Of a stretch of DNA of 49,572 bases, positions 7,594-49,572 are shown in pieces. The notes under the pieces are model-generated. The model worked only from the letters and a program-made list of their open reading frames with translations, searched no databases and was not told where the DNA came from. The stretch spans positions 19,468 to 69,039 of the forward strand of contig PLMC01000031.1 in NCBI GenBank assembly GCA_003141495.1. Reading direction: 5' to 3'. Numbering within the stretch: the stretch's first letter is position 1; each line of letters starts with the position of its first letter. Position numbers and translations under genes: made by a program. Source of the DNA: Bacteroidales bacterium (GTDB taxonomy: Bacteria; Bacteroidota; Bacteroidia; Bacteroidales; VadinHA17).

Positions 7594-8532
7594 GCATAAG
7601 TGCAATCAAATTTATAAACTCCAAGTTCCTCTTCTCACTATACCCTAATCTGGTAATTGTTGAAAAACCCACCACTAACATTGATATTAACCAGCTGATT
7701 GAAATCATTAAGTATGGGTATATAGAAGATATAATTAATATCCTCAGAAGCTCAATATCGAAGGAGGAGTATAACCTGATCAAAAAAGATAGTATCCCAT
7801 GTGTAACCTTATCCGGTGTATTCACTCATAGAGACAGTAAGAACCTGGTTAATCATAGTGGACTCATACAGGTTGATATAGATAAGGTGGAGGACTATGA
7901 GGCAACATTTAGTAAGTTATGTAAGGACAATTACATATATGTCTGTTTCAGGAGTCCAGGAGGAAATGGGATAAAGGCAATAGTTAAAATCAATCCATCA
8001 ATAGAGACCCATAAGAGCCAGTTCAAGGCACTTGAGATTTACTTCAAGAGTAAGGTTCGGCATTGCGATAGATAGCCTGTGTAAGGACCTTGCAAGGGCT
8101 ATGCTTCTGTCATACGACCCGGATATTTATTGCAATCCCTGGGCAGCCATATTTGAAGAAATGTTTGTAGAGAAAGTTTATCAACGAAAAAGTCCTCGTG
8201 GACCACAATTTGTAGGAGAAGAAAAGGCTGTTTATACTGATGAATCCGAAGATGTAGTAGAGAAGCTAATTGCCGCCCTGGAGGAGAATCAGATCGATAT
8301 TACAAGCTCTTATAAAAACTGGATTAAAATTGGATTTGCTCTGTGTACAACATTTGGAGAACAAGGAAGAGTGTATTATCATAGGATTGGAAGGATGTAT
8401 CCTCGCTATACACATGAGGAAACAGATGATATGTATTCCAACCTATTGGTAAGAAACAATAGAAAGACAAAGTTAGGGTCTATTATTTATTTAGCCATAC
8501 AAGCCGGAGTGAGAATTAAAAACAGAAATTGA
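7590..8532 (+). pseudogene. VirE-N/primase-like protein of a mobile element, frameshifted
   Basis: Two overlapping frames make one protein. The first (7590-8075) has the pattern HSGLIQVDIDKVED ... VCFRSPGGNGIKAIVKI, typical of the BT4734/VirE N-terminal primase-like domain. The second supplies GIAIDSLCKDLARAMLLSYD, then a PriCT_2-like C-terminal domain (SSYKNWIKIGFALCTTFGEQ through GSIIYLAIQAGV). Removing one G at 8054/8055 joins them as KSK-FGIAIDS, giving a protein of about 313 residues. Full-length relatives usually continue into a helicase domain, which is absent here. In Bacteroidota these proteins belong to integrative elements and are linked to their replication. The ATGA overlap with the helicase implies one transcript. 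Confidence 0.7.
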
Positions 8533-12659: not shown

Positions 12660-12709
12660 TCGGGGTGGCAGGATTCGAACCTGCGACCCTCTGGTCCTAA
12701 ACCAGATGC
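12660..12709 (-). pseudogene. 3' half of a tRNA (Pro-like), integration scar
   Basis: The minus strand reads GCATCTGGTTTAGGACCAGA, then GGGTCGCAGGTTCGAATCCT and GCCACCCCGA: a full anticodon arm, variable loop, T arm with TTCGAAT and the 3' acceptor strand. The D arm and 5' acceptor strand are missing; unrelated AT-rich sequence replaces them. The body resembles bacterial tRNA-Pro(TGG), but the anticodon position reads TAG, so it has mutated since it lost function. A 3' tRNA half is the typical product of integration into a tRNA gene. Confidence 0.75.
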
Positions 12710-13021
12710 TTTATAATGATCTACAAGCTAATAAAAACGTCCCCTTATTTGCCATTCTAAAACAGGGGAGGTTTTCCGTTGATAAATGTTATTTTTATGA
12801 CACTATATTATTGGGGGGAGTCTAATTTAAGAATGAAGTAGTTCGAATCCTCCCTATACTACAAAGCTGAATCTCAGCAACCTGTAAGCTAATAACTTAC
12901 AGGTTTTTTAATTGCCAAATTGGAAACATATTGGAAACATTGAGGATAAAAACAAAATCCGAATAAAGAATTACTCGGATTTTTAATTGTTTCTAAATGA
13001 AGTACAAAATTATTTATTCTA
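12710..13021. other. Junction region with a second tRNA-like end and the right repeat copy
   Basis: No protein gene. About 12828-12865 reads AGTAGTTCGAATCCTCCCTA and ends ACTACA, like a T loop and 3' acceptor whose T stem no longer pairs. A small hairpin (GCTGAATCTCAGC) and the right copy of the ~66 bp module follow at once. Confidence 0.5.
12874..12939 (+). repeat. Right copy of the ~66 bp integration/terminator module
   Basis: AACCTGTAAGC ... CTTACAGGTT forms a hairpin followed by TTTTTT, a good terminator for a plus-strand tRNA. Then comes AATTGCCAAATTGGAAACAT and a second TTGGAAACAT, a 10-11 bp direct repeat. The whole block matches the minus strand of 1946-2016 at roughly 85 percent of positions. 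The two copies face each other over 10.9 kb. Confidence 0.65.
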
Positions 13022-18692: not shown

Positions 18693-21600
18693 ATGAAAAA
18701 ATTCAATATTTTACAATATGCAACTTTATTAATAAGAAGTTGTTCGAAAAAAACCTTCAGAATCATAAGACTCACAACTCTTCTTTTAAGCGTGACTGTT
18801 TTTAATGTTTTTGGAGGTACTACAGATTCAGATTATACAAATCTGAATCTTAACAAAGAAAAAGATCCGGCAGCAATCATGCAGCAGAATAGAATTACCG
18901 GAACTGTTACCGATGAAAAAGGAAATCCTTTGCCAGGTGTAAACGTAGTTCTTACCGGAACAACTCAGGGTTCGACAACTGATATTGATGGTAAATATAG
19001 CATTAATATTTCCAATGGAGCCAAGAGTCTGACTTTCTCATTTATTGGGATGAAATCACAGGAAGTTAGTATCGGTGCACTTACCCAAATCAATGTAACT
19101 ATGACTGAGTCGGCATTTGGTCTGGAAGATGTTGTTGTTATAGGTTATGGAACTATTAAAAAAAGTGATTTGACTGGTGCCGTTGGTGTTATTAAAAGTG
19201 ATGTTATTAGCAACCGGAAGGACATACAAATTTCTCAGGCTTTGCAGGGAACGATGCCTGGACTTATGGTCACTAGAGATAACACTGACCCTGGCTCAAC
19301 TGCAACGTTACGTATTAGGGGAATTACTACCATTGGAGATAGTAATCCACTTATCATTATTGATGGCGTACCAGGTGGCAGTATCGATGATGTGAATCCC
19401 AATGATATTGAAAGTATCTCTGTGCTTAAAGATGCAGCTTCAGCTTCAATTTATGGATCACGTGCTGCTGCCGGGGTTATCCTACTAACTACAAAGAGGG
19501 CAAAATCAGGAGATTTAAAGCTTGAGTACAATTATGAATTTGGATTTGAAAAACCAACAGAAATGCCTAAGTATGTCGGAGCAGTTCGTTATATGCAGAT
19601 GTTAAACGAATTACGCTGGAACGATAACAATAATATAGTAGGAGGGGAATATTCCACCTTCACACAAGATATTATAAATAATTATTCATCATTGCATACT
19701 GAGAATCCCGATCTCTATCCAGATGTAAATTGGCTTAATCTTATTTTAAAAGACAATGCATTAAGACAAAGTCATTTCTTAAATATAAGTTCCGGCTCAA
19801 AACTAATCAAGACTAAAGCATCTCTAGCTTATGATGAAATTGGAGGCCTTTATATGATGAAAGATTTTAAAAGGTTCACAGTACGTGTTAATAATGATAT
19901 AACAATTAATAAGTATTTATCTGCTTCTCTTGATTTTTATGCGAAAAGGGAAATATCAAATAATCCGAGTGTGGATCCTATTTATTATGGCCGTCTTACA
20001 CCTAATATATATGCTCCCGAATGGTCAGATGGTCTTGTCGCAGAAGGAAAAACGGGGTCAAATATTTATGGAGAACTCAAATATGGTGGCTTCAAAAATT
20101 ACTGGGATAATCAATTAGGGGGGAAAATTTCAATAAATCTTGAGCCATTTAATGGCCTGAAGTTCTCAGCAGTTTTATCGCCACAATTTTCTTATTATAA
20201 AGGGAAAGAATTTAGAAAAAAGATACAATATACTGCCTATGATAATCCTAATGTCTTAGTGGGAACACTGGTAAGTTTAATCGATAATAATGCTTCTACT
20301 AATTTAAATGAAATCAGAAATGATAATTATAATGTAACGTTACAATTACTTGCAAATTACACTAAATCTTTTGGGAATCATAATATGAATGCAACATTTG
20401 GATACGAAAATTACTATGCTTCTTATGAAAGCCTTAGTGCTTATAGCAACAACTTTACATTATCAAATTATCCTTACCTAGATTTGGGGAATACAAATTT
20501 CTTGCAAAACACTGGTAGCGCTTACGAAAATGCTTATCGGTCCTTTTTCGGGCGCATCCTGTACAATTATAAAAATAAATATTTATTACAAGGAAATGTT
20601 AGAACAGATGGATCTTCTCGCTTTTATAAAGATTATCGTTGGGGAATTTTTCCTTCTGTTTCTGCAGGTTGGGTGCTTTCAGAAGAAACTTTTATGAAAA
20701 ATTCCCCAATCTTTTCATTCCTGAAATTAAGAGGATCATGGGGAACCCTTGGTAATGACCGAATTGGAAATTATCCGTATCAATCAGCAATATCTTTTCA
20801 TAATGCTTTGATGTATAATGGGAGCAACGTTTCATCGGTTCAAACATCATCCCAAGATACATATGCTATAAAAGATATTTCTTGGGAAACTACTAGATCA
20901 TTAGATTTTGGCATCGATGTAAACTTTTTCAAAAATAAACTTAATTTTTCTGGCGATTACTATAAAAAAGTAACTAAAGATATGCTCTTAGCTCTTGAAA
21001 TTCCAGATTATATCGGATTTAACAATCCGGACCAAAATACTGGAAAAATGGTTACTACAGGTTGGGAAATTAGTTTAGGATGGAATGATAAAATTGGGGA
21101 ATTAGTAGGATACTCCGTATCAGCAAATCTTTCAGATTCCAGATCGATTATGGGAGACTTAGGCGGTATCCAATTTCTTGGAGACCAAGTCAAATATAAA
21201 GGGAGTGAATACAACGAATGGTATGGTTACATATCCGAAGGGCTATATCAAACCCAAGATGATGTTAATAATTCTGCCAAGATAAACGCGAGTGTTAAAC
21301 CTGGAGATATTAAATATAAAGACACTAGTGGACCCAACGGAGTGCCAGATGGGATAATCAATAACTATGATAAGGTATTATTAGGAGGATCTTTGCCTCG
21401 TTATTTGTACGGCGGGAATATCAGTCTTAATTATAAAAATTTCGATTTCTCACTAGGATTTCTAGGGATTGGCAAACAAAATGTTCGTTTATCTTCATTA
21501 ATGGTCCAGCCTTTTTTGCAGCAATTTGGGAATGCTCCAGAACTTATTGATGGTAACTATTATAGTATTTATAATACTGAAGTTCAAAATCTTGCGGCCA

Positions 21601-40165: not shown

Positions 40166-42424
40166 TTAATCCTTATTAAATATGTATTTTTCTTTAGAAA
40201 TTTCAACTAAGAACCTTGACGGTAAGTAAAAAAATGCATCATAGGAATAGATATTGCGAGGGAATGTAATGTAGAGCTCTTCTTTTGCCCTGCTGCAAGC
40301 TACATAGAACAATCTGCGCTCCTCTTCCATTTCTTCAATGTTAGTCGCTCTATTAGATGGGAACATACCTTCCAGTGCATGTGGAATGAACACTGCATAC
40401 CATTCTAACCCTTTTGCAGAATGAACAGTTGATATTGTTACCTTACCCTCTTCTTCTCCTTCGTCTATTAAGGGTTTAGTTTGATCAGCGACTCTTTTCG
40501 ATGGCGGGTCTAGTGCAAAATCAGATAAAAACTTGTCCAGATCTTTGTATTTCTTTGAAAGATCAATCAGTACTTCAACATCTTGCATCCTAATGAAATA
40601 ATCATCTTCTCTTGCTTTAAGAATTGGTGAATAGTAATCTTTAATAACCTCTATCTTTTGAGTAAGAGTATATTCAGGTTGACGGGCTTGAGCTAACATT
40701 TTTCCTAGCATAAAAAGTTCAGAATAGAACTTCCTCTGTTTAAAAGTTTCAAATGAAAACGGGTCATCATTATTTCGAAAATCATTAATTACACTACCCG
40801 CAGTTACTTGGCCTACACCACCGATGTATTTTAATATTCTGTGCCAGGCAACGGCATCAGCAGGGTTATAAGTTATTCTTAAATAAGAAATGATATCTTT
40901 AATATGCATTCGTTCATTAAATCGGAAACCTCCAACTACTACATATGGAATCCCTCTCTTACTCATCTCAGCTTGAATGTATCTATTGTGCCAATCAGCA
41001 CGATTAAGGACAGCAATTTCGTTTAAGGGAATATTCTGTTCGCTTAGTTCCATTATTCTATCCACAATAAACGCTGCCTCTTCTTGCTGTCCATAAGCTC
41101 TTTTAATTATTGGGGTAGATTGTCTTAAGTTCTTTGTAAAGAGCTTCTTCTTATAACCAATTTTTGCATTATCTATTATGCAATTTGTGAAATCCAATAT
41201 CTTCTGATTACTCCTATAATTCTCCTCTATCTTAACAACCACACATTCAGGATAAGTCTCAGGGAATCGTAAAATGTTTTCATAGTTAGCTCCTCTGAAG
41301 GCATAGATGCTTTGAGAATCATCACCGACAACCATAATTCTTCTATGCTTTTCGGAAATGAAATCAACTATCTCTTTTTGCACAATGTTGGTATCCTGGA
41401 ATTCATCTACCATTACATACTGGTAATGGTTCTGAAGATTCTCACGGAATCTGATATTGTCTCTCAGAGAATCTCTTAGAATCTCCATAAGGTCATCAAA
41501 ATCAAGTATTTTGCTCAGAACCTTATATTTTGAATAACCATTATAGATCAGTTCAATATCAGGTATATAATCTATGAGACCGGTATATTGTTCATGTACG
41601 ATCGAGCTTATTGTGGTATTCTTATTTCTGGAATATGATATGATATCATGAATTCTTGATTTCCTTGGAAACTTTTTGTCTTTTGTGTTGAATTTAAGTT
41701 CTGTTCTAATAAGATCTATTATGTCTTCTGAATCACTTGCGTCTATTATTGTAAAATTAGGTGGAAGATTGAGCATGTTAGAGTACTTTCTAAGTATAAA
41801 CGCTGCGAAAGAATGAAAAGTGCCGCCTGTTACATTTCCAACCCTTTTGTCCTGAAGAAGTGTTTCAACTCGCTCGAGCATCTCCCTGGATGCTTTACGA
41901 GTAAAGGTTAACAATAGAATAGATTGAGCATCAATACCCTTCTCTATCAAATAAGAAACTCTATGGACAATAACCCTTGTCTTTCCACTACCAGCTCCTG
42001 CAATTACTAGTACTGGTTTTTCAGTAATCAAAACAGCTGTTAACTGAGATGAGTTAAGGGTATTGCGATAATTAACTTTAAACTGACTGAGGTCTTGAAC
42101 AGAAATATTTCCAATATCAACATTTTTCTTCTCTATTGAATTTGCAATTATTTGTAGCTCAGATATTTTCTTATCTAAATCAGGAGACAATTCAATGTCA
42201 GGATATTTGGACAATTCAATAGATTGAATATCCTTAAGATCGGCAATGTCGGTTTGTGATTTAATTGATACTGTACCAGTTATTTGCTTTAGAATATTGT
42301 CAAGAAGATCAATTTGAGAAGTAGGTTGATCTAAATGGCTACTGCCAACCTTCTTAATTTCTCCATTAGGTCCGATTTCTGATTGGATTTTTTTCCTATT
42401 TTGTTTTTCCTCTAACATCGACAT
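40166..42424 (-). CDS. UvrD/PcrA/Rep-type ATP-dependent DNA helicase
   Basis: 752 residues, close to the family norm. An unusual N-terminal extension of about 115 charged residues precedes the Q motif (LNSSQLTAV, 123-131), then Walker A GAGSGKT (143-149), LLTFTRKASREML, GGTFHSFAAFILRKY, VMVDEFQDTN (Walker B), VVGDDSQSIYAFRGA, ISTVHSAKGLEW and LFYVACSRAKEELYI. All SF1A motifs are intact, so it should unwind DNA 3'-5' with ATP. It is an accessory helicase inside an island; the housekeeping UvrD is expected elsewhere. The zinc-finger gene lies about 200 bp upstream on the same strand. No nuclease partner is adjacent. Confidence 0.9.
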   Translation of the reverse strand: MSMLEEKQNRKKIQSEIGPNGEIKKVGSSHLDQPTSQIDLLDNILKQITGTVSIKSQTDIADLKDIQSIELSKYPDIELSPDLDKKISELQIIANSIEKKNVDIGNISVQDLSQFKVNYRNTLNSSQLTAVLITEKPVLVIAGAGSGKTRVIVHRVSYLIEKGIDAQSILLLTFTRKASREMLERVETLLQDKRVGNVTGGTFHSFAAFILRKYSNMLNLPPNFTIIDASDSEDIIDLIRTELKFNTKDKKFPRKSRIHDIISYSRNKNTTISSIVHEQYTGLIDYIPDIELIYNGYSKYKVLSKILDFDDLMEILRDSLRDNIRFRENLQNHYQYVMVDEFQDTNIVQKEIVDFISEKHRRIMVVGDDSQSIYAFRGANYENILRFPETYPECVVVKIEENYRSNQKILDFTNCIIDNAKIGYKKKLFTKNLRQSTPIIKRAYGQQEEAAFIVDRIMELSEQNIPLNEIAVLNRADWHNRYIQAEMSKRGIPYVVVGGFRFNERMHIKDIISYLRITYNPADAVAWHRILKYIGGVGQVTAGSVINDFRNNDDPFSFETFKQRKFYSELFMLGKMLAQARQPEYTLTQKIEVIKDYYSPILKAREDDYFIRMQDVEVLIDLSKKYKDLDKFLSDFALDPPSKRVADQTKPLIDEGEEEGKVTISTVHSAKGLEWYAVFIPHALEGMFPSNRATNIEEMEEERRLFYVACSRAKEELYITFPRNIYSYDAFFYLPSRFLVEISKEKYIFNKD

Positions 42425-42623: not shown

Positions 42624-43106
42624 TTAAAAGATTTTTTCATTATTCTCCTGCCAGCTCTCTTTATAAAGCTTATACTCTTGCTGAGATATTCTCATTACTT
42701 CCATAAAATACTCATCTGTGAATACCTGTGCTGATGATTTCAACCAATTTTTAACTGTAGAGAAAGGTATGAGTTCCTCGATAAATTCCTTTTCATGAAA
42801 TAGCTGTTCTTCTGACAAACATTCTAATAATTTCCGGTATAAAGAATCTTTATCTCCCTGAAAAATCAATTTGTCCTCAGGTATATTAGGGTTTATTATT
42901 ATTCCAGGATGTAACACTTTCCCTTCATTTGGATCATGATCATAGTAAGTTGTTTTCGCCCACTTATTATATTGGACCTTATGACTCTCATTACAAAACT
43001 TTGCAGAATTTCGCTTAGCGTAAAATATTTTTCTACAGAACAAACATGTCTTTACGATAAGTTTATTCTTAATATTCATCTCTTTTGTTCTCATATTCAG
43101 CTCCAT
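42624..43106 (-). CDS. Zinc-finger protein of unknown function
   Basis: 160 residues. Near the N-terminus CLFCRKIFYAKRNSAKFCNE plus SHKVQYNKW forms a C-x2-C ... C-x3-H zinc finger, similar to small DNA- or RNA-binding fingers found in integrated elements. The remainder is helical and acidic (ECLSEEQLFHEKEFIEELIP). The first Met (43106) and Met-5 or Met-10 are all possible starts. It lies between the repeat array at 43125-43345 and the helicase gene. The family is not recognised; a regulator or an accessory factor for the recombinases is possible. Confidence 0.55.
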   Translation of the reverse strand: MELNMRTKEMNIKNKLIVKTCLFCRKIFYAKRNSAKFCNESHKVQYNKWAKTTYYDHDPNEGKVLHPGIIINPNIPEDKLIFQGDKDSLYRKLLECLSEEQLFHEKEFIEELIPFSTVKNWLKSSAQVFTDEYFMEVMRISQQEYKLYKESWQENNEKIF

Positions 43107-43364
43107 ATATAGTGCTAGCTATTGTTCATTTACGTTATCATGGTGTTTTTTACGCTACCATTTACATTATTTGAAGGGTTTGAATTAATAATAACTATCG
43201 CATCCAATAGAATAATGGCTATAATGCAAGTATTTTGTTTACGTTAACATTTACGATAGTTGTTACTCCTTAAAAATTTCAAAATCAATCGCATCAAAGT
43301 GAATAATCACTATAATGCGATAGTTTTGTTTACGGTAAATCCACCCTATTAGTTTCTATCTTTT
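43107..43364. other. Non-coding repeat array (candidate recombination or regulatory site)
   Basis: Two 51-bp direct repeats (43197-43247 and 43288-43338, 41 of 51 positions equal, offset 91) share ATCGCATC, GAATAAT, CTATAATGC and TTTTGTTTACG-TAA. The hexamer TTTACG also recurs near 43131, 43149 and 43251. The array lies between resolvase and zinc-finger gene, where res-like sites or an operator would be expected. Confidence 0.6.
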
Positions 43365-43927
43365 TTAGCGTATATACTCATCGAGGGATTTATGCTGTCC
43401 ATCTGCCTGATCAACCTTTTGTCGCTCTCTTGCCATACGTAGTAGATAACCACTTCTTCTTCTCTTTGATTTGTCCTTGGCACCTATCGGTCGACCGAGA
43501 ATCTTTCCAGTTAATTTGGCTCTTCTAATCCCTCTTTGGTACGTTCAGATATCAGTGCACGTTCAAATTCAGCAAAAGCGCCGAGTATTTGAAAATGCAG
43601 TTTACTAGCAGCTGTTGAAAAATCCAGGTTATCAGAATATGAAATAAACTTAATATCCTTTTTAAGAAATTCATCTATTTCAAGAACAAGCTCTGTGGAA
43701 CTTCTGGCCCAACGGTCCAGTTTAAATACCAGGACTCCATCATATTCATGATTCCTGAGTTTTTCCAATAACTCTGCTTTAACTGGTCTGGTATTCCTCG
43801 TGCTTTGCACCTCGGAGAATAGATCATACTGCCAACCTTGCGATTCAGCATGTTCTACTAATCTTAGTCGTTGATTTTCAATTGTCTGATCAGTCGTACT
43901 AACCCTCATGTATATTGCGATTTTCAT
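43365..43927 (-). pseudogene. Serine recombinase (resolvase family), frameshifted
   Basis: Codons from 43927 encode the catalytic domain: MKIAIYMRVSTTDQTIENQR with the active-site Ser in RVSTTDQ, YDGVLVFKLDRWARSSTELV and FAEFERALISERTKEGL. The frame then ends at EEPN-stop (43511). In another frame the rest continues as RRAKLTGKILGRPIGAKDKS, KRRRSGYLLRMARERQ and a tail to a TAA at 43365. Adding one A (GGATTA-AGAAGAGCC) restores GL-RRAKLTGK. The intact form would have about 187 residues and includes the basic C-terminal tail common in Bacteroidota resolvases. As written the protein keeps the catalytic domain but lacks the DNA-binding end. Confidence 0.75.
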
Positions 43928-44054
43928 CTTCTTTTTTAATTTTCTTATTAAGATACCATATCAGTAATGCAAAAAAAAACAGTGTTCCAGAAAAGATTAC
44001 AAAGCTTTTCATTGAATCGTTAGTCTCTGGTACCGAGGAATATAAGGCTTCCAT
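43899..44054 (-). CDS. 51-residue single-pass membrane peptide
   Basis: The ATG at 44054 is one base after the TAA of the ATP-grasp gene, and the stop at 43899 lies inside the start of the resolvase gene. The product is MEALYSSVPETNDSMKSFVI, a membrane helix (about 18-35, FVIFSGTLFFFALLIWYL), then a charged tail NKKIKKEDENRNIHEG. The orientation predicted by charges is N-out, C-in. The tight junctions on both sides favour real translation. The family is unknown. The acidic tail or N-terminus could be a substrate of the neighbouring ligase; this is speculation. Confidence 0.5.
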   Translation of the reverse strand: MEALYSSVPETNDSMKSFVIFSGTLFFFALLIWYLNKKIKKEDENRNIHEG

Positions 44055-44055
44055 A

Positions 44056-45195
44056 TTATTTTACATTAAAAGTTTCAAATACAATTCGATAAAGGTCATA
44101 TATGTTTTTAACTTTCAGTAATATCGTTTTCCCTAAAATGTCTTTATAGGATATTGACTTATCTTTTGTTGATTCAAAGAGTTCTTTCATTCGCCTGTTT
44201 TCAATGAAAAACTGCAAATTGTTCCAAAGGGATCTGTTTTGAGTTCTTAGCTGCTCATAATAATAATTTGGGGACTTTGGTTGAGCTGTTTTCCCAGTTA
44301 ATTCACGATTTTCAAGATATCCGATGAGATGCTCACCTATATCAACGCCTGTTATCTTCTGTCCTTTGAATCCGAAATTTGAATTTATTTCATTTAGATA
44401 GGTTATCCCTTTTGTATCTTTAATTAAGTCAACGCCAGAGACTTCCAAGCCTATAGTTTTTGATGCTTTCACACATGTTATTTCATCATCCGTTGATAGC
44501 TTGATAAGCTCCCCACTTCCTCCAAGGCTTAAATTACTCCTGAAATCACCTTTGCGAACAGTCCGCTGATATGCCACTACTACTCTATCACCCGTCACCA
44601 CTGCCCTTATGTCCTTTCCTCGTGATTCGATGTATTCTTGAACAATAAAATCAGCTTTGTTTTTAATTAAGCCTTCAATGGTCGAGATTGCAGATTTCCT
44701 GGATTCCATGAGCATTACACCGGCACCTTGTGACCCGTAGTTGTACTTAAGTATCAAAGGAATACCTCCTACTTTTTCAATTATGAAGTCTATGTTACTT
44801 ACGGTTTTTACATATAGGGTAGTTGGTGTCTTAATCCCATATCGTGAGCAAAGCTGCAGAGTATGGAATTTATTGGTAGCAGCACGTAGCCCTGAAGCCG
44901 TTTGGATAGAGTAAATACCCAAGTTTTCTGAAAGATGTTCTACTACGTATGAATTGTAATTGAGATTATTACCAATACGCGGGACTATAGCATCAATCTC
45001 CCGAATCGTTATTCTTGTTGCAGTTTTAGGAAGTAAATCATATACCCGATCGTAACCAGCTTCAATGTTGGAGATCAATGGTGAAAAATGAGCAGGATCA
45101 AGAACAAGAATTTTATGGCCACGCTTCTGTCCTGCCTTAAAAATGCTCTGCGTGGCGTAGCATAACTCTGAGCTATTTAGTATCAGGATGTTCAT
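44056..45195 (-). CDS. RimK-like ATP-grasp ligase
   Basis: 379 residues. The fold of RimK-type ATP-grasp enzymes is visible: an N-terminal pre-grasp part (MNILILNSSEL ... AIVPRIGNNLNY), ATP-binding LILKYNYGSQGAGVMLM (147-163), QEYIESRGKDIRAVVTGDRV (186-205), RSNLSLGGSGE and GVDLIKD ... YLNEINSNFGFKG with metal ligands Asp256, Glu269 and Asn271. RimK enzymes add glutamate or similar residues to a peptide carboxylate using ATP. The ~80-residue C-terminal extension after LIGYLENREL is unusual. Its start shares one base with the stop of the integrase (TAATG), implying coupled translation. RimK's normal S6 target is not suggested by this setting. Substrate unknown. Confidence 0.8.
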   Translation of the reverse strand: MNILILNSSELCYATQSIFKAGQKRGHKILVLDPAHFSPLISNIEAGYDRVYDLLPKTATRITIREIDAIVPRIGNNLNYNSYVVEHLSENLGIYSIQTASGLRAATNKFHTLQLCSRYGIKTPTTLYVKTVSNIDFIIEKVGGIPLILKYNYGSQGAGVMLMESRKSAISTIEGLIKNKADFIVQEYIESRGKDIRAVVTGDRVVVAYQRTVRKGDFRSNLSLGGSGELIKLSTDDEITCVKASKTIGLEVSGVDLIKDTKGITYLNEINSNFGFKGQKITGVDIGEHLIGYLENRELTGKTAQPKSPNYYYEQLRTQNRSLWNNLQFFIENRRMKELFESTKDKSISYKDILGKTILLKVKNIYDLYRIVFETFNVK

Positions 45196-46418
45196 TATGA
45201 AGTTTTTTGAAGTTTCTCACGTACTATTTCTGTTCCTTTAGCTATACTTATTTCATCAATTTTGGCATATTTTCGGGTCATGAACAAGCTCTTGTGTCCA
45301 AGAATTTTTGATACAATATCCATACTTACCCCTTCAAGTAGGAGAACTGAAGTTGCGAAAGTTCTCCGAGCAGTATGTGTGGTAAGAATCTTTTTTATAC
45401 CACATATATCAGCAATTTCTTTAAGGTACCCGTTCATTTTTTGATTTGAAGGCACTGGGAGAAGGACATTCCTGATTATACAGAGAGGAGAATCCTTATA
45501 TTTTTCGATAATATTTTCAGGAATTTTGAATAAGGGTATCCTTGAAATTACATCAGTTTTCTTCCTATGTTTGCTAATCCATTTTTTCTTATCAATCCCT
45601 ATTTGAATATTATCTTCGTTTAATTCTTTAACATCAGAAAAGGCAAGGCCGGTATAACAGCAAAAGAGGAATATGTCTCTGACAATTTCCAGCCTTTTAA
45701 TTGAAATATCCTTTTCTTGAACAGAATGGAGTTCTTCTTGTGTCAGGTATGGCTTCTCGATTTCTTCCAACCTGAATCTGACTTCTTTGTAAGGACTTCT
45801 TGGTATCCAGCCTTTTTCGATAGCAATTCTTACTATTTTATTAAAATTACGGATATACTTGATTGCGGTGTTGTTTGCACATTTTTTCTCCGACCGCAGG
45901 TATAAATCAAATTTTTCAAACAGTTCCTTGTCAATTTTTGAAATCGGAAGATCTCCTGTCTTGTACTCCTTTTTCAAAAAGTCACTGAAATGTTTCCGAC
46001 ATGTCAGGTACCTGTCATAAGTTGCTTGTGCTAACTGAAAGCCTACTTTTTTTTCGCAGAAACTATTATGATTATCAAATAGTTTCATAATAGTGCGTTC
46101 ATTATCTCTTTGACCGGAATAATAATACCTGAGGTTACCAAGTGTAAGAGGTTTTTCTTCCTGATCAATTTTAAGTTTGATTCTGTAAATCTTATCCCGC
46201 GTAGCATCAATTAGCTCATTTACCAGATTTGAGTTTTTGTCATATCCCCGGGATTTCTCCTTTTTAGAGTCCCATTTCTCTTTATCCACTCCAATATTAA
46301 GGGATGTTTCCCATCTACTCCCATTAAGAGTAATTCTCACAAAAAGTGGAGCTTTGCCATTTGCAAGTAACTTGCTTTTCTTAGCAAAGAAACAGATTGA
46401 AAAAGTTGAATTTCTCAT
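45195..46418 (-). CDS. Tyrosine recombinase (Bacteroidota integrase)
   Basis: 407 residues. An Arm-DNA-binding N-terminus (ICFFAKKSKLLANGKAPLFV), SAM-like core-binding part (about 110-205) and catalytic domain are all present: YTGLAFSDVKEL (255-266), HTARRTFATSVLL with His348 and Arg351, GHKSLFMTRKYAKI with His375 and the nucleophile Tyr384. The first catalytic Arg (usually TGLR) is Ala259, a variant that is common in this Bacteroidota group. It points away from tRNA-Ser at 46650 and lies about 230 bp from it, the usual place of an integrase next to its tRNA target. It is the first gene of the overlapping four-gene run. Confidence 0.9.
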   Translation of the reverse strand: MRNSTFSICFFAKKSKLLANGKAPLFVRITLNGSRWETSLNIGVDKEKWDSKKEKSRGYDKNSNLVNELIDATRDKIYRIKLKIDQEEKPLTLGNLRYYYSGQRDNERTIMKLFDNHNSFCEKKVGFQLAQATYDRYLTCRKHFSDFLKKEYKTGDLPISKIDKELFEKFDLYLRSEKKCANNTAIKYIRNFNKIVRIAIEKGWIPRSPYKEVRFRLEEIEKPYLTQEELHSVQEKDISIKRLEIVRDIFLFCCYTGLAFSDVKELNEDNIQIGIDKKKWISKHRKKTDVISRIPLFKIPENIIEKYKDSPLCIIRNVLLPVPSNQKMNGYLKEIADICGIKKILTTHTARRTFATSVLLLEGVSMDIVSKILGHKSLFMTRKYAKIDEISIAKGTEIVREKLQKTS

Positions 46419-46646: not shown

Positions 46647-46736
<90 letters not shown>

Positions 46737-46802: not shown

Positions 46803-47837
46803 TCATGAGATTTCTCCTGCCAGAGAAACATTCAAAGATTGTACTACTTCAGCCCCGGATGAATGCCTTCCAAGAAGATACATAAGTTTGGTCACAGATG
46901 CCTCTGAAGTAATGTCTTTTCCGCTAACTACACCTGCAGCAAGCATCTGACGACTGGTCTCATACAACCCCATCTCAACACTTCCCCCATGACACTGGGT
47001 AACATTTAATATTATTCCACCTTTGTCAATAAATTGTTTCAGATCATCTAAAAACCATTGATAGGTTGGTGCATTACCCGAACCATATGTTTCAATAATA
47101 AGTCCGCGTAACCCCTCTGTTCTGGTAATTGCATTTACAAGTTTTCTGTTAATCCCGGGGAATAGTTTAAGAATTGCAACATTAGTATCAAATCCTTTAT
47201 GAACAATTAGTTTCTTTTCTTTATCGGGATAATTTATAAGATTATTATAATACTTTAAATGTAAGCCAACTTCAGCAAGGGTATGATAATTCGGAGAATA
47301 GAATGCATCGAAATGCTCAGCGCTCATCTTGGTCGTACGGTTACCACGGGTTAGCTTATTATCGAAGAAAATACAAACCTCCGGAACAGTCGGAAAACCG
47401 TTTTCCATAGCAGCGGCTATTTCAATTGCAGTAATAAGATTCTCCCTCCCGTCTGTACGCAAAAGACCTATCGGCAATTGTGAACCGGTAAGAATAACAG
47501 GTTTTCCAAGGCTCTCAAGCATAAAACTCAGTGCAGATGCAGTATATGCCATAGTATCAGTGCCATGCAGGATCACAAATCCATCAAAATCGTCATAGCT
47601 TTCTTCAATTATCTCTGCCATTTTAACCCAAACTCCGGGATCAATATTTGAAGAATCTTTCACCGGATCAAAGGATATGGAATGAAGATCATAACCGAAT
47701 TTCCGAAGCTCCGGGACATGATCTGAAATATGCCGGAAGTCAATTGGTACTAGAGATCCGGTATGAGGATCGTAAACCATTCCGATGGTTCCCCCGGTAT
47801 AAATGATAAGTATTGAGATTTCCTTTTTATTTTTCAT
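46803..47837 (-). CDS. ansA: Type I L-asparaginase
   Basis: 344 residues. The N-terminal active-site threonine motif is IYTGGTIGMVYD and the second catalytic block is FVILHGTDTMAYTASAL (Thr-Asp). VILTGSQLPIGLLRTDGREN and a C-terminal part with GSGNAPTY and VTQCHGGSVEMGLYETS fit the bacterial cytoplasmic asparaginase I group. It hydrolyses asparagine to aspartate and ammonia. There is no signal peptide. It is 8 bp behind the tatD gene in the same direction, so probably cotranscribed. The length is normal. Confidence 0.95.
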   Translation of the reverse strand: MKNKKEISILIIYTGGTIGMVYDPHTGSLVPIDFRHISDHVPELRKFGYDLHSISFDPVKDSSNIDPGVWVKMAEIIEESYDDFDGFVILHGTDTMAYTASALSFMLESLGKPVILTGSQLPIGLLRTDGRENLITAIEIAAAMENGFPTVPEVCIFFDNKLTRGNRTTKMSAEHFDAFYSPNYHTLAEVGLHLKYYNNLINYPDKEKKLIVHKGFDTNVAILKLFPGINRKLVNAITRTEGLRGLIIETYGSGNAPTYQWFLDDLKQFIDKGGIILNVTQCHGGSVEMGLYETSRQMLAAGVVSGKDITSEASVTKLMYLLGRHSSGAEVVQSLNVSLAGEIS

Positions 47838-47845
47838 TTTTTCAA

Positions 47846-48612
47846 TTAAAGATTGAAAAGAGCGGCCGAATTTGAATATGTAACAGATGCTATCTCTTCT
47901 TCTCCAATTCCAAATATATCGGCCAGTTTTTTATTTATGATGCAAATATAAGAACTCTCATTCCGTTTTCCCCTGTAAGGTGCCGGCGCAAGATAGGGAG
48001 AATCCGTTTCCAGAACAAGACTCTCAGGACCGGTCTCTTTGATAATTTTATCCAGTCCGGAGTTCTTAAAAGTCACAATGCCGCCAATCCCGAGCTTAAA
48101 TCCCATATTTATAGCTCTTTCCGCATCTCTGATACTGCCGGAAAAGGCGTGAAAAACTCCCTTTAGTTCACATCCTTTAAACTCATTTAGAACATAAAAA
48201 ACTTCAGGAAATGCTTCCCTGGAGTGTATCACAACAGGTAATCGGTTATCCAACGCAAATGCAATTTGTCTTCTGAACACAATTATCTGTTCTTTCAGGA
48301 ATGTTTTATCCCAATAGAGATCGATACCAATTTCTCCGATAGCAACAAATTTGTGTTTTGTATACAGGTTTTCAAGTTTATCCAGCTGGGAAAGACAATC
48401 CTCTTTAACCGATGTGGGATGAAGTCCGGTCATTGGATAGCAGATGCCAGGGTACCTGTTAACTGCAGAAAGCATCTGGTCAACAGATCCTGTATCTATG
48501 TTAGGTAACAGCATTTTTGAAATACCATTAGCTATCGCCCTGTTTACCACTTCATCCCTGTCGGTATCGAATTCCGGAAGATAGAGATGTGTATGAGTAT
48601 CAATAAACTGCA

Positions 48613-48613
<1 letters not shown>
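47846..48613 (-). CDS. tatD: TatD-family metal-dependent DNase
   Basis: 255 residues, standard length. Metal-binding motifs are in order: DTHTHLYLPEFD (His7, His9), AIGEIGIDLYWD (Glu), PVVIHSREAF (His), FHAFSGS (His) and LVLETDSPYL (Asp). It is a cytoplasmic TIM-barrel hydrolase of the TatD group, acting as a 3'-5' DNase or a D-aminoacyl-tRNA-type hydrolase in relatives. The start ATG shares one base with the stop of the glutamate dehydrogenase gene (TAATG), so the two are coupled. Confidence 0.95.

Positions 48614-49572
<959 letters not shown>

Follow-up and report, generated by a model that had tools for sequence, protein, structure and literature searches.

What does a RimK-like ligase do on mobile DNA, between two recombinase genes and directly in front of a gene for a short membrane peptide? 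This arrangement is found in a 49,572-nucleotide stretch from a Bacteroidales bacterium (positions 19,468 to 69,039 of contig PLMC01000031.1; contig C15 of a 3.5 Mb draft genome that is about 90% complete), hereafter called the window. On its minus strand, counting from a tRNA-Ser gene, an integrase, a RimK-like ATP-grasp ligase, a 51-residue membrane peptide and a resolvase follow one another. We read this locus as a small integrative element at tRNA-Ser, whose cargo is a RimK-type ligase and a coupled single-helix membrane microprotein acting as one unit, and hold this reading with a confidence somewhat short of even. The observations behind it are the gene order, the enzyme family, the spacing of the gene starts, the co-occurrence of the peptide with an extra C-terminal domain of the ligase and the presence of catalytic-type residues.

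Organization of the gene chain

The integrase (45195..46418, minus strand; 407 residues) is a tyrosine integrase, with arm-binding, SAM-like and catalytic domains recognised by Pfam (Arm-DNA-bind_5, Phage_int_SAM_5 and Phage_integrase). As an earlier note on this DNA had described, its gene has one base in common with that of the ligase (44056..45195, minus strand; 379 residues), stop and start being joined in TAATG, and a one-base gap separates the ligase stop from the ATG of the peptide (43899..44054, minus strand). The next junction is also tight, the final 29 bases of the peptide gene overlapping the start of the serine resolvase (ATG at 43927), as far as the start of that gene is concerned; the resolvase itself is not intact. 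Its open frame (43511..43927, minus strand) ends at 43511 after 138 residues, and position 43365, previously given as its end, closes a different frame, so the earlier note had read across a break.

The ligase and the microprotein form a conserved pair

We compared sixteen loci with ligase relatives (the window, L005, L014-L020, L021, which is the same as L006, L049, L093-L096 and L105). Five of them, the window, L005, L015, L093 and L105, contain an intact frame for a peptide of 48-51 residues, and in all five its ATG is located one base past the ligase stop, in L105 behind a ligase remnant of 42 codons. Tight junctions alone are ordinary in the window, where five of the 29 same-strand neighbour pairs overlap or are at most one base apart, three of them within this chain; the recurrence of ligase stop, single base and peptide ATG in five of five loci is a spacing beyond chance, and suggests that the two genes are translationally coupled.

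The five peptides all start with MEA, followed by Ser or Cys at position 6, Ser or Asp at position 7, Ile or Val at position 8 and Pro9 (MEA..[SC][SD][IV]P), and then continue into one hydrophobic helix (19-mer mean hydrophobicity of 2.0-2.9 in each). Raw counts, which include codons overlapping the next gene, give a non-synonymous difference (pN) of 0.32 against a synonymous one (pS) of 0.82 between L015 and L093, and 0.32 against 0.53 between the window and L005. Because the start spacing, the N-terminal motif and the synonymous excess recur, we rejected the possibility that the peptide is a chance open reading frame. The earlier note had made its case depend on the frame being conserved in relatives, and it is, down to 32% identity of the ligase. 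When a profile of the peptide was compared with 386 genomes of the order, strong matches were obtained only in G000 and G108, G009 and G867 being outside the strong matches listed; the weaker matches in 157 further genomes, with E-values between 2.2e-4 and 0.1, we take as membrane-helix noise.

Recurrence of the peptide with the ligase, also expected earlier, holds for one part of the family. An extra C-terminal domain, about residues 310-379 in the window ligase (44059..44268, minus strand, from the alignment of relatives), is aligned in the window, L005, L006, L015 and L093, and in the last 42 codons retained by L105. The peptide comes directly after each of the four domain-bearing ligases whose contig includes the 3' side, and after the remnant; it is absent behind the seven others (L016, L018, L019, L020, L094, L096 and the divergent-tailed L017, followed by an unrelated 126-residue membrane reading frame). 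The contig of L014 stops 74 bases after the ligase. That domain and peptide occur together suggests docking of the two partners.

The resolvase was considered as the partner of the peptide instead. A search over 136 relatives gave seven resolvase loci in six genomes, and in three of these, L106, L107 and L108, there is no credible match to ligase or peptide (tblastn, E <= 1; the best weak match, of the L005 peptide to L108, is gapped and has an E-value of 0.004). Since these three loci have the resolvase and neither of the other two genes, the peptide travels with the ligase and a partnership with the resolvase is disfavoured. The association of ligase and peptide is real and conserved.

The ligase belongs to a mobile branch of the RimK family

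The window ligase matches the Pfam RimK family (3.7e-42) and, with 177.2 bits, passes the curated subfamily cut-off (143.4) of TIGR00768, the RimK family alpha-L-glutamate ligases. It fails the equivalog cut-offs of NF007764 (S6--L-glutamate ligase RimK; 183 of 331 bits) and TIGR02144 (LysX; 111.2 of 275.6 bits). Among the 25 of 28 NCBIfam matches listed, the best is of RimK type and none is a graspetide synthetase model. The solved structures nearest to the ligase profile are the RimK-type glutamate ligases 7qyr, 7qys, 5zct and 4iwx. Lys109, Lys150, Arg211, Asp256, Glu269 and Asn271, which we take to be ATP- or metal-binding residues of catalytic type, are invariant in all 12 aligned mobile ligases. 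The (S/A)SPG loop of four reference RimK proteins is changed in 11 of the 12; L094 retains a proline. In the tree, the 12 mobile ligases appear to branch apart from the four references, a split of moderate support (86/74) that recurs in 90% of 200 bootstrap trees.

Relatives are sparse. At strict cut-offs, and with the window's own genome counted among the positives each time, the ligase is present in one of 395 phylum-wide genomes (the window's own), eight of 393 genomes of the order and four of 146 nearest relatives; in three more sets, each of 119 genomes and sharing members with one another and with the earlier sets, it is present in five, five and six genomes. The carriers total 12 (G000, G009, G103, G108, G551, G554, G608, G650, G777, G833, G867 and G875), and a thirteenth genome, G011, has a truncated copy of 118 residues at the same tRNA-Ser site. 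Second copies are found in G108 (L095, decayed) and in G833 (L020, broken into two frames). A contig scan gave two ligase loci, L005 and L006, taken to be those of G009 and G777. Viral contigs, scanned four times for the ligase and once for the resolvase in pattern-based and narrow scans, revealed no relative. In plasmids, 36 records match the ligase below 60% identity, the named ones among the 20 listed being RimK or LysX; a resolvase search at 1e-30 gave no relative in plasmid records. In phages, 16 cyanophage records match the ligase.

Probable insertion at tRNA-Ser and element types

The tRNA-Ser(gga) gene (46648..46736, minus strand; ARAGORN and Rfam) forms the edge of the element on the integrase side. 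To its right (46803-49572), the genes are conserved in eight relatives (tblastn), and the left side is variable. The far end of the element was not located, a search of the rest of the window for a repeat of the tRNA end finding none. The integrase adjoins tRNA-Ser in the window, G009, G011 and, by eye, G006, and the window integrase gave no match at the tRNA-Ser site of G001, G005, G008, G013, G017 and G018; an integrase beside a tRNA gene, with the site free of integrase in relatives, is what identifies a tRNA-targeting integrative element. Separately, a tRNA-like fragment at 12666-12725 (minus strand) is seen by Rfam and not by ARAGORN.

The earlier expectation that ligase relatives would mostly be accompanied by an integrase is borne out, as a tyrosine integrase, or its end, is on the same stretch in ten of the 16 loci. 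It is within 0.8 kb of the ligase in nine (the window, L005, L049, L015, L017, L016, L019, L020 and L094) and 4.5 kb away in L096. Pfam confirmed nine of the ten; the integrase of L020, of which only the last 45 residues are present, was called because it resembles that of L019. In L014, L021 and L093 the contig stops beside the ligase, and no integrase was seen on the 4.6 kb contig of L018 or beside the decayed copies L095 and L105.

Two types of element can be distinguished. In type A (the window, L005, L105, L015 and L093), the ligase or its end is followed by the peptide and the resolvase, with a gene for 131-133 residues between the latter two in L015 and L093. A protein of 122-133 residues is encoded near the ligase in L015 (5760-6161), L093 (4333-4728) and L021 (1923-2291), with no accepted Pfam or structure match. 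A nucleoside-deoxyribosyltransferase-like name for the gene of 131-133 residues was dropped, since the resemblance is not accompanied by a Pfam, PHROG or solved-structure match. L105 (5900-7330, in G009) is a truncated second copy, composed of the last 42 ligase codons, the peptide, the resolvase and a broken Cys-rich gene; it directly adjoins the end of a gene resembling the Fib_succ_major gene beside L005. Type B (L016, L019, L020 and L096) is compact, with an integrase, primase- or helicase-like genes, helix-turn-helix regulators and the ligase, and no peptide; genes were called with Pfam and PHROG in L016, L019 and L020, and by eye in L096. L019 and L020 contain what is presumably a DinD-like gene. 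The type B elements look satellite-like; no capsid gene was recognised by eye, and no capsid search was made.

Two loci stand beside these types. The distant ligase of L094 (1598-9043) has a gene called DnaB-like by eye on one side and a second tyrosine recombinase on the other. Next to this region is a gene for a phage small terminase, and the locus, near the contig start, may be a prophage or a satellite. L021 contains a DnaB-like gene, again by eye, and is cut at the ligase end.

Downstream genes and repeats

The window resolvase contains the Pfam resolvase N-terminal domain (PF00239, 9e-35). Intact resolvases of relatives have 187-192 residues, against the 138 of the open frame in the window, where the continuation can be read off the sequence in another frame (43365..43510, minus strand); the break may be real or a draft-assembly error. 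Beyond it is a pair of 58-nucleotide direct repeats, 78% identical, found by a repeat search (43190..43338). Between resolvase and Cys-rich gene, L005 contains 12-bp tandem repeats of the ACGGTAAA type (7825-7909 and 7963-7994); the corresponding region of the window (43122-43360) contains CGTAAA motifs, noted by eye, and the 58-nucleotide repeat pair, and no tandem array.

The next gene (42624..43106, minus strand) encodes a protein of 160 residues with a Cys-rich start, ribbon-like by eye and with no Pfam match. It is 43% identical to its L005 counterpart, which is likewise downstream of the resolvase. In L015, L017, L093 and L095, genes for proteins that lack Cys are located upstream of the ligase; we did not accept these proteins as homologues of the Cys-rich ones, as hhalign produced one aligned stretch with a probability of 0.8% and an E-value of 0.07. 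A UvrD-type helicase (40166..42424, minus strand; Pfam) is a candidate member of the element; it adjoins the module in the window and in L015 (505-4574), where a second tyrosine recombinase comes after it, and none is seen in L005. Resolvase, ribbon-like protein and helicase would have separate functions in the element.

Proposed function and alternatives

For the unit of ligase and microprotein, we propose ATP-dependent joining of an amino acid, by family analogy glutamate, to a carboxylate by the ligase, whose C-terminal domain would dock the microprotein; the latter would be either the acceptor itself or a membrane adaptor bringing the ligase to its target. We infer that the unit probably serves the fitness of the element, by stabilising it, excluding rivals or providing defence, and not the metabolism of the host. 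In its most specific form, a mobile RimK branch would have gained a docking domain and a membrane microprotein substrate of its own, and membrane-anchored protein-tailing would exclude rivals, resist phages or enforce retention; in this form we regard the proposal as unlikely.

Several observations weigh against the proposal. The AlphaFold model of the ligase, made from three sequences, has a mean predicted local distance difference test score (pLDDT) of 49.6 and was too poor for use in a fold search, which makes the docking a guess; the C-terminal domain is its best-predicted part, residues 331-370 (pLDDT 80-88) being the only well predicted region. RimK adds residues to a C-terminus. In the peptide this end is encoded where the frame overlaps the following gene, and its variability argues against a C-terminal tailing that depends on sequence. 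Glu2 is the sole acidic residue conserved in all five peptides, and the tail, rich in Lys and Arg in three of them, hints at a conserved N-terminus that may face outward. At least seven family members have no such peptide, and L105 retains an intact one with most of its ligase lost, in a genome that also holds a complete copy (L005). Peptide, C-terminal domain and resolvase occur in one element type, so part of their joint occurrence is shared ancestry. Finally, the synonymous excess of the peptide frame comes from counts made without a formal test and partly from codons it shares with its neighbour.

The main rival target is host ribosomal protein S6, to whose C-terminus the ligase would add glutamate, tuning translation for the element, with the peptide as a regulator or membrane tether; we consider this doubtful, at about the level of the most specific form of our own proposal. 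The closest characterised relatives of the ligase are S6 ligases, although it misses the S6-ligase equivalog score and the SSPG-type loop is altered in nearly all mobile ligases, as described above. The S6 tails, 28 of them readable in 30 loci examined, point both ways. The ending -EE is found in 19 of 20 tails from the same genus and, among ligase carriers, in G009, G867, G608 and the S6 fragment of G000. But genus members have it whether or not they carry the ligase, none of eight tails from other genera has it, and two carriers have other endings, EG in G108 and EA in G554 (the G833 tail was not read). In favour of this rival, the window genome gave no second match to the ligase at E <= 0.001. 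RimK-like genes also occur in cyanophages, and a phage family that the ligase matches is classed under host takeover. By analogy with Pseudomonas, the peptide may be a regulator: in the RimABK system, as reported in PMC7343187, the small co-encoded proteins RimA and RimB control RimK.

Two further readings leave S6 aside. One is an addiction module that retains the element, in which the microprotein would act as a membrane toxin that the ligase counteracts by modifying it, or in which the roles are swapped. A hydrophobic single-helix peptide of 48-51 residues, coupled to the ligase and next to integrase and resolvase, does resemble small membrane toxins. However, PADLOC has no model that matches ligase or peptide, and the L105 frame has stayed intact without most of its ligase, though the same genome also has a complete copy; we give the addiction module a poor chance. 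In the other reading, the substrates of the ligase are the recombinases of the element itself, through which it would control integration or excision, with the peptide as by-stander or tether; this would fit a tyrosine integrase within 0.8 kb in nine of 16 loci, and the gene overlaps in the window, L005, L049 and, with the second recombinase, L094. In small elements, though, cargo is often beside the integrase, and here orientation and spacing vary, the two genes being convergent in L016, L019 and L020, and the chance of this reading is slim.

Relation to known systems and significance

The RimK family is known to act in ribosome modification, in the tailing of cofactors and in carrier-protein biosynthesis. 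Like RimK of E. coli and Pseudomonas, the ligase described here has RimK ATP-grasp and preATP-grasp domains and catalytic-type residues; it differs in its mobile context, the extra C-terminal domain, the changed substrate-side loop and the membrane microprotein. The small co-encoded partners of the Pseudomonas enzyme (PMC7343187) provide a further likeness. Graspetide systems, to which the earlier note compared the locus, also place the gene for a short peptide right behind that of an ATP-grasp ligase, and this much of the parallel is conserved in all five type A loci. In the locus described here, by contrast, the peptide consists of a short conserved N-terminus and a membrane helix, and shows no repeated or otherwise recognisable core. 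As no exporter or protease gene is seen in the chain and the ligase scores as a member of the RimK family, the parallel appears weak.

The pair of LysX, a RimK-like ligase, and its carrier protein LysW, of about 54 residues, is similar in combining a ligase of this family with one small dedicated protein. The peptide here differs by its membrane helix, and it presumably lacks the acidic C-terminal carrier motif of LysW; the ligase, as stated, misses the LysX score. The cyanophage genes (PHROG 2599) are likewise RimK-like ligases on mobile DNA, unlike the window ligase in having about 30-32% identity to it and no C-terminal domain, and no such peptide was recognised among the annotated neighbours in one record, that of cyanophage S-RIM8. 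In the titles and abstract openings searched, a coverage that largely excludes subscription papers, we found no RimK-like ligase on integrative elements.

The locus thus presents a known enzyme family, RimK, in a mobile setting and in a variant with a membrane microprotein. If our proposal is true, a branch of RimK fixed on integrative elements, with a membrane microprotein as its partner, would represent a new substrate class for the family, and the ligase-microprotein pair would be a new kind of mobile cargo.

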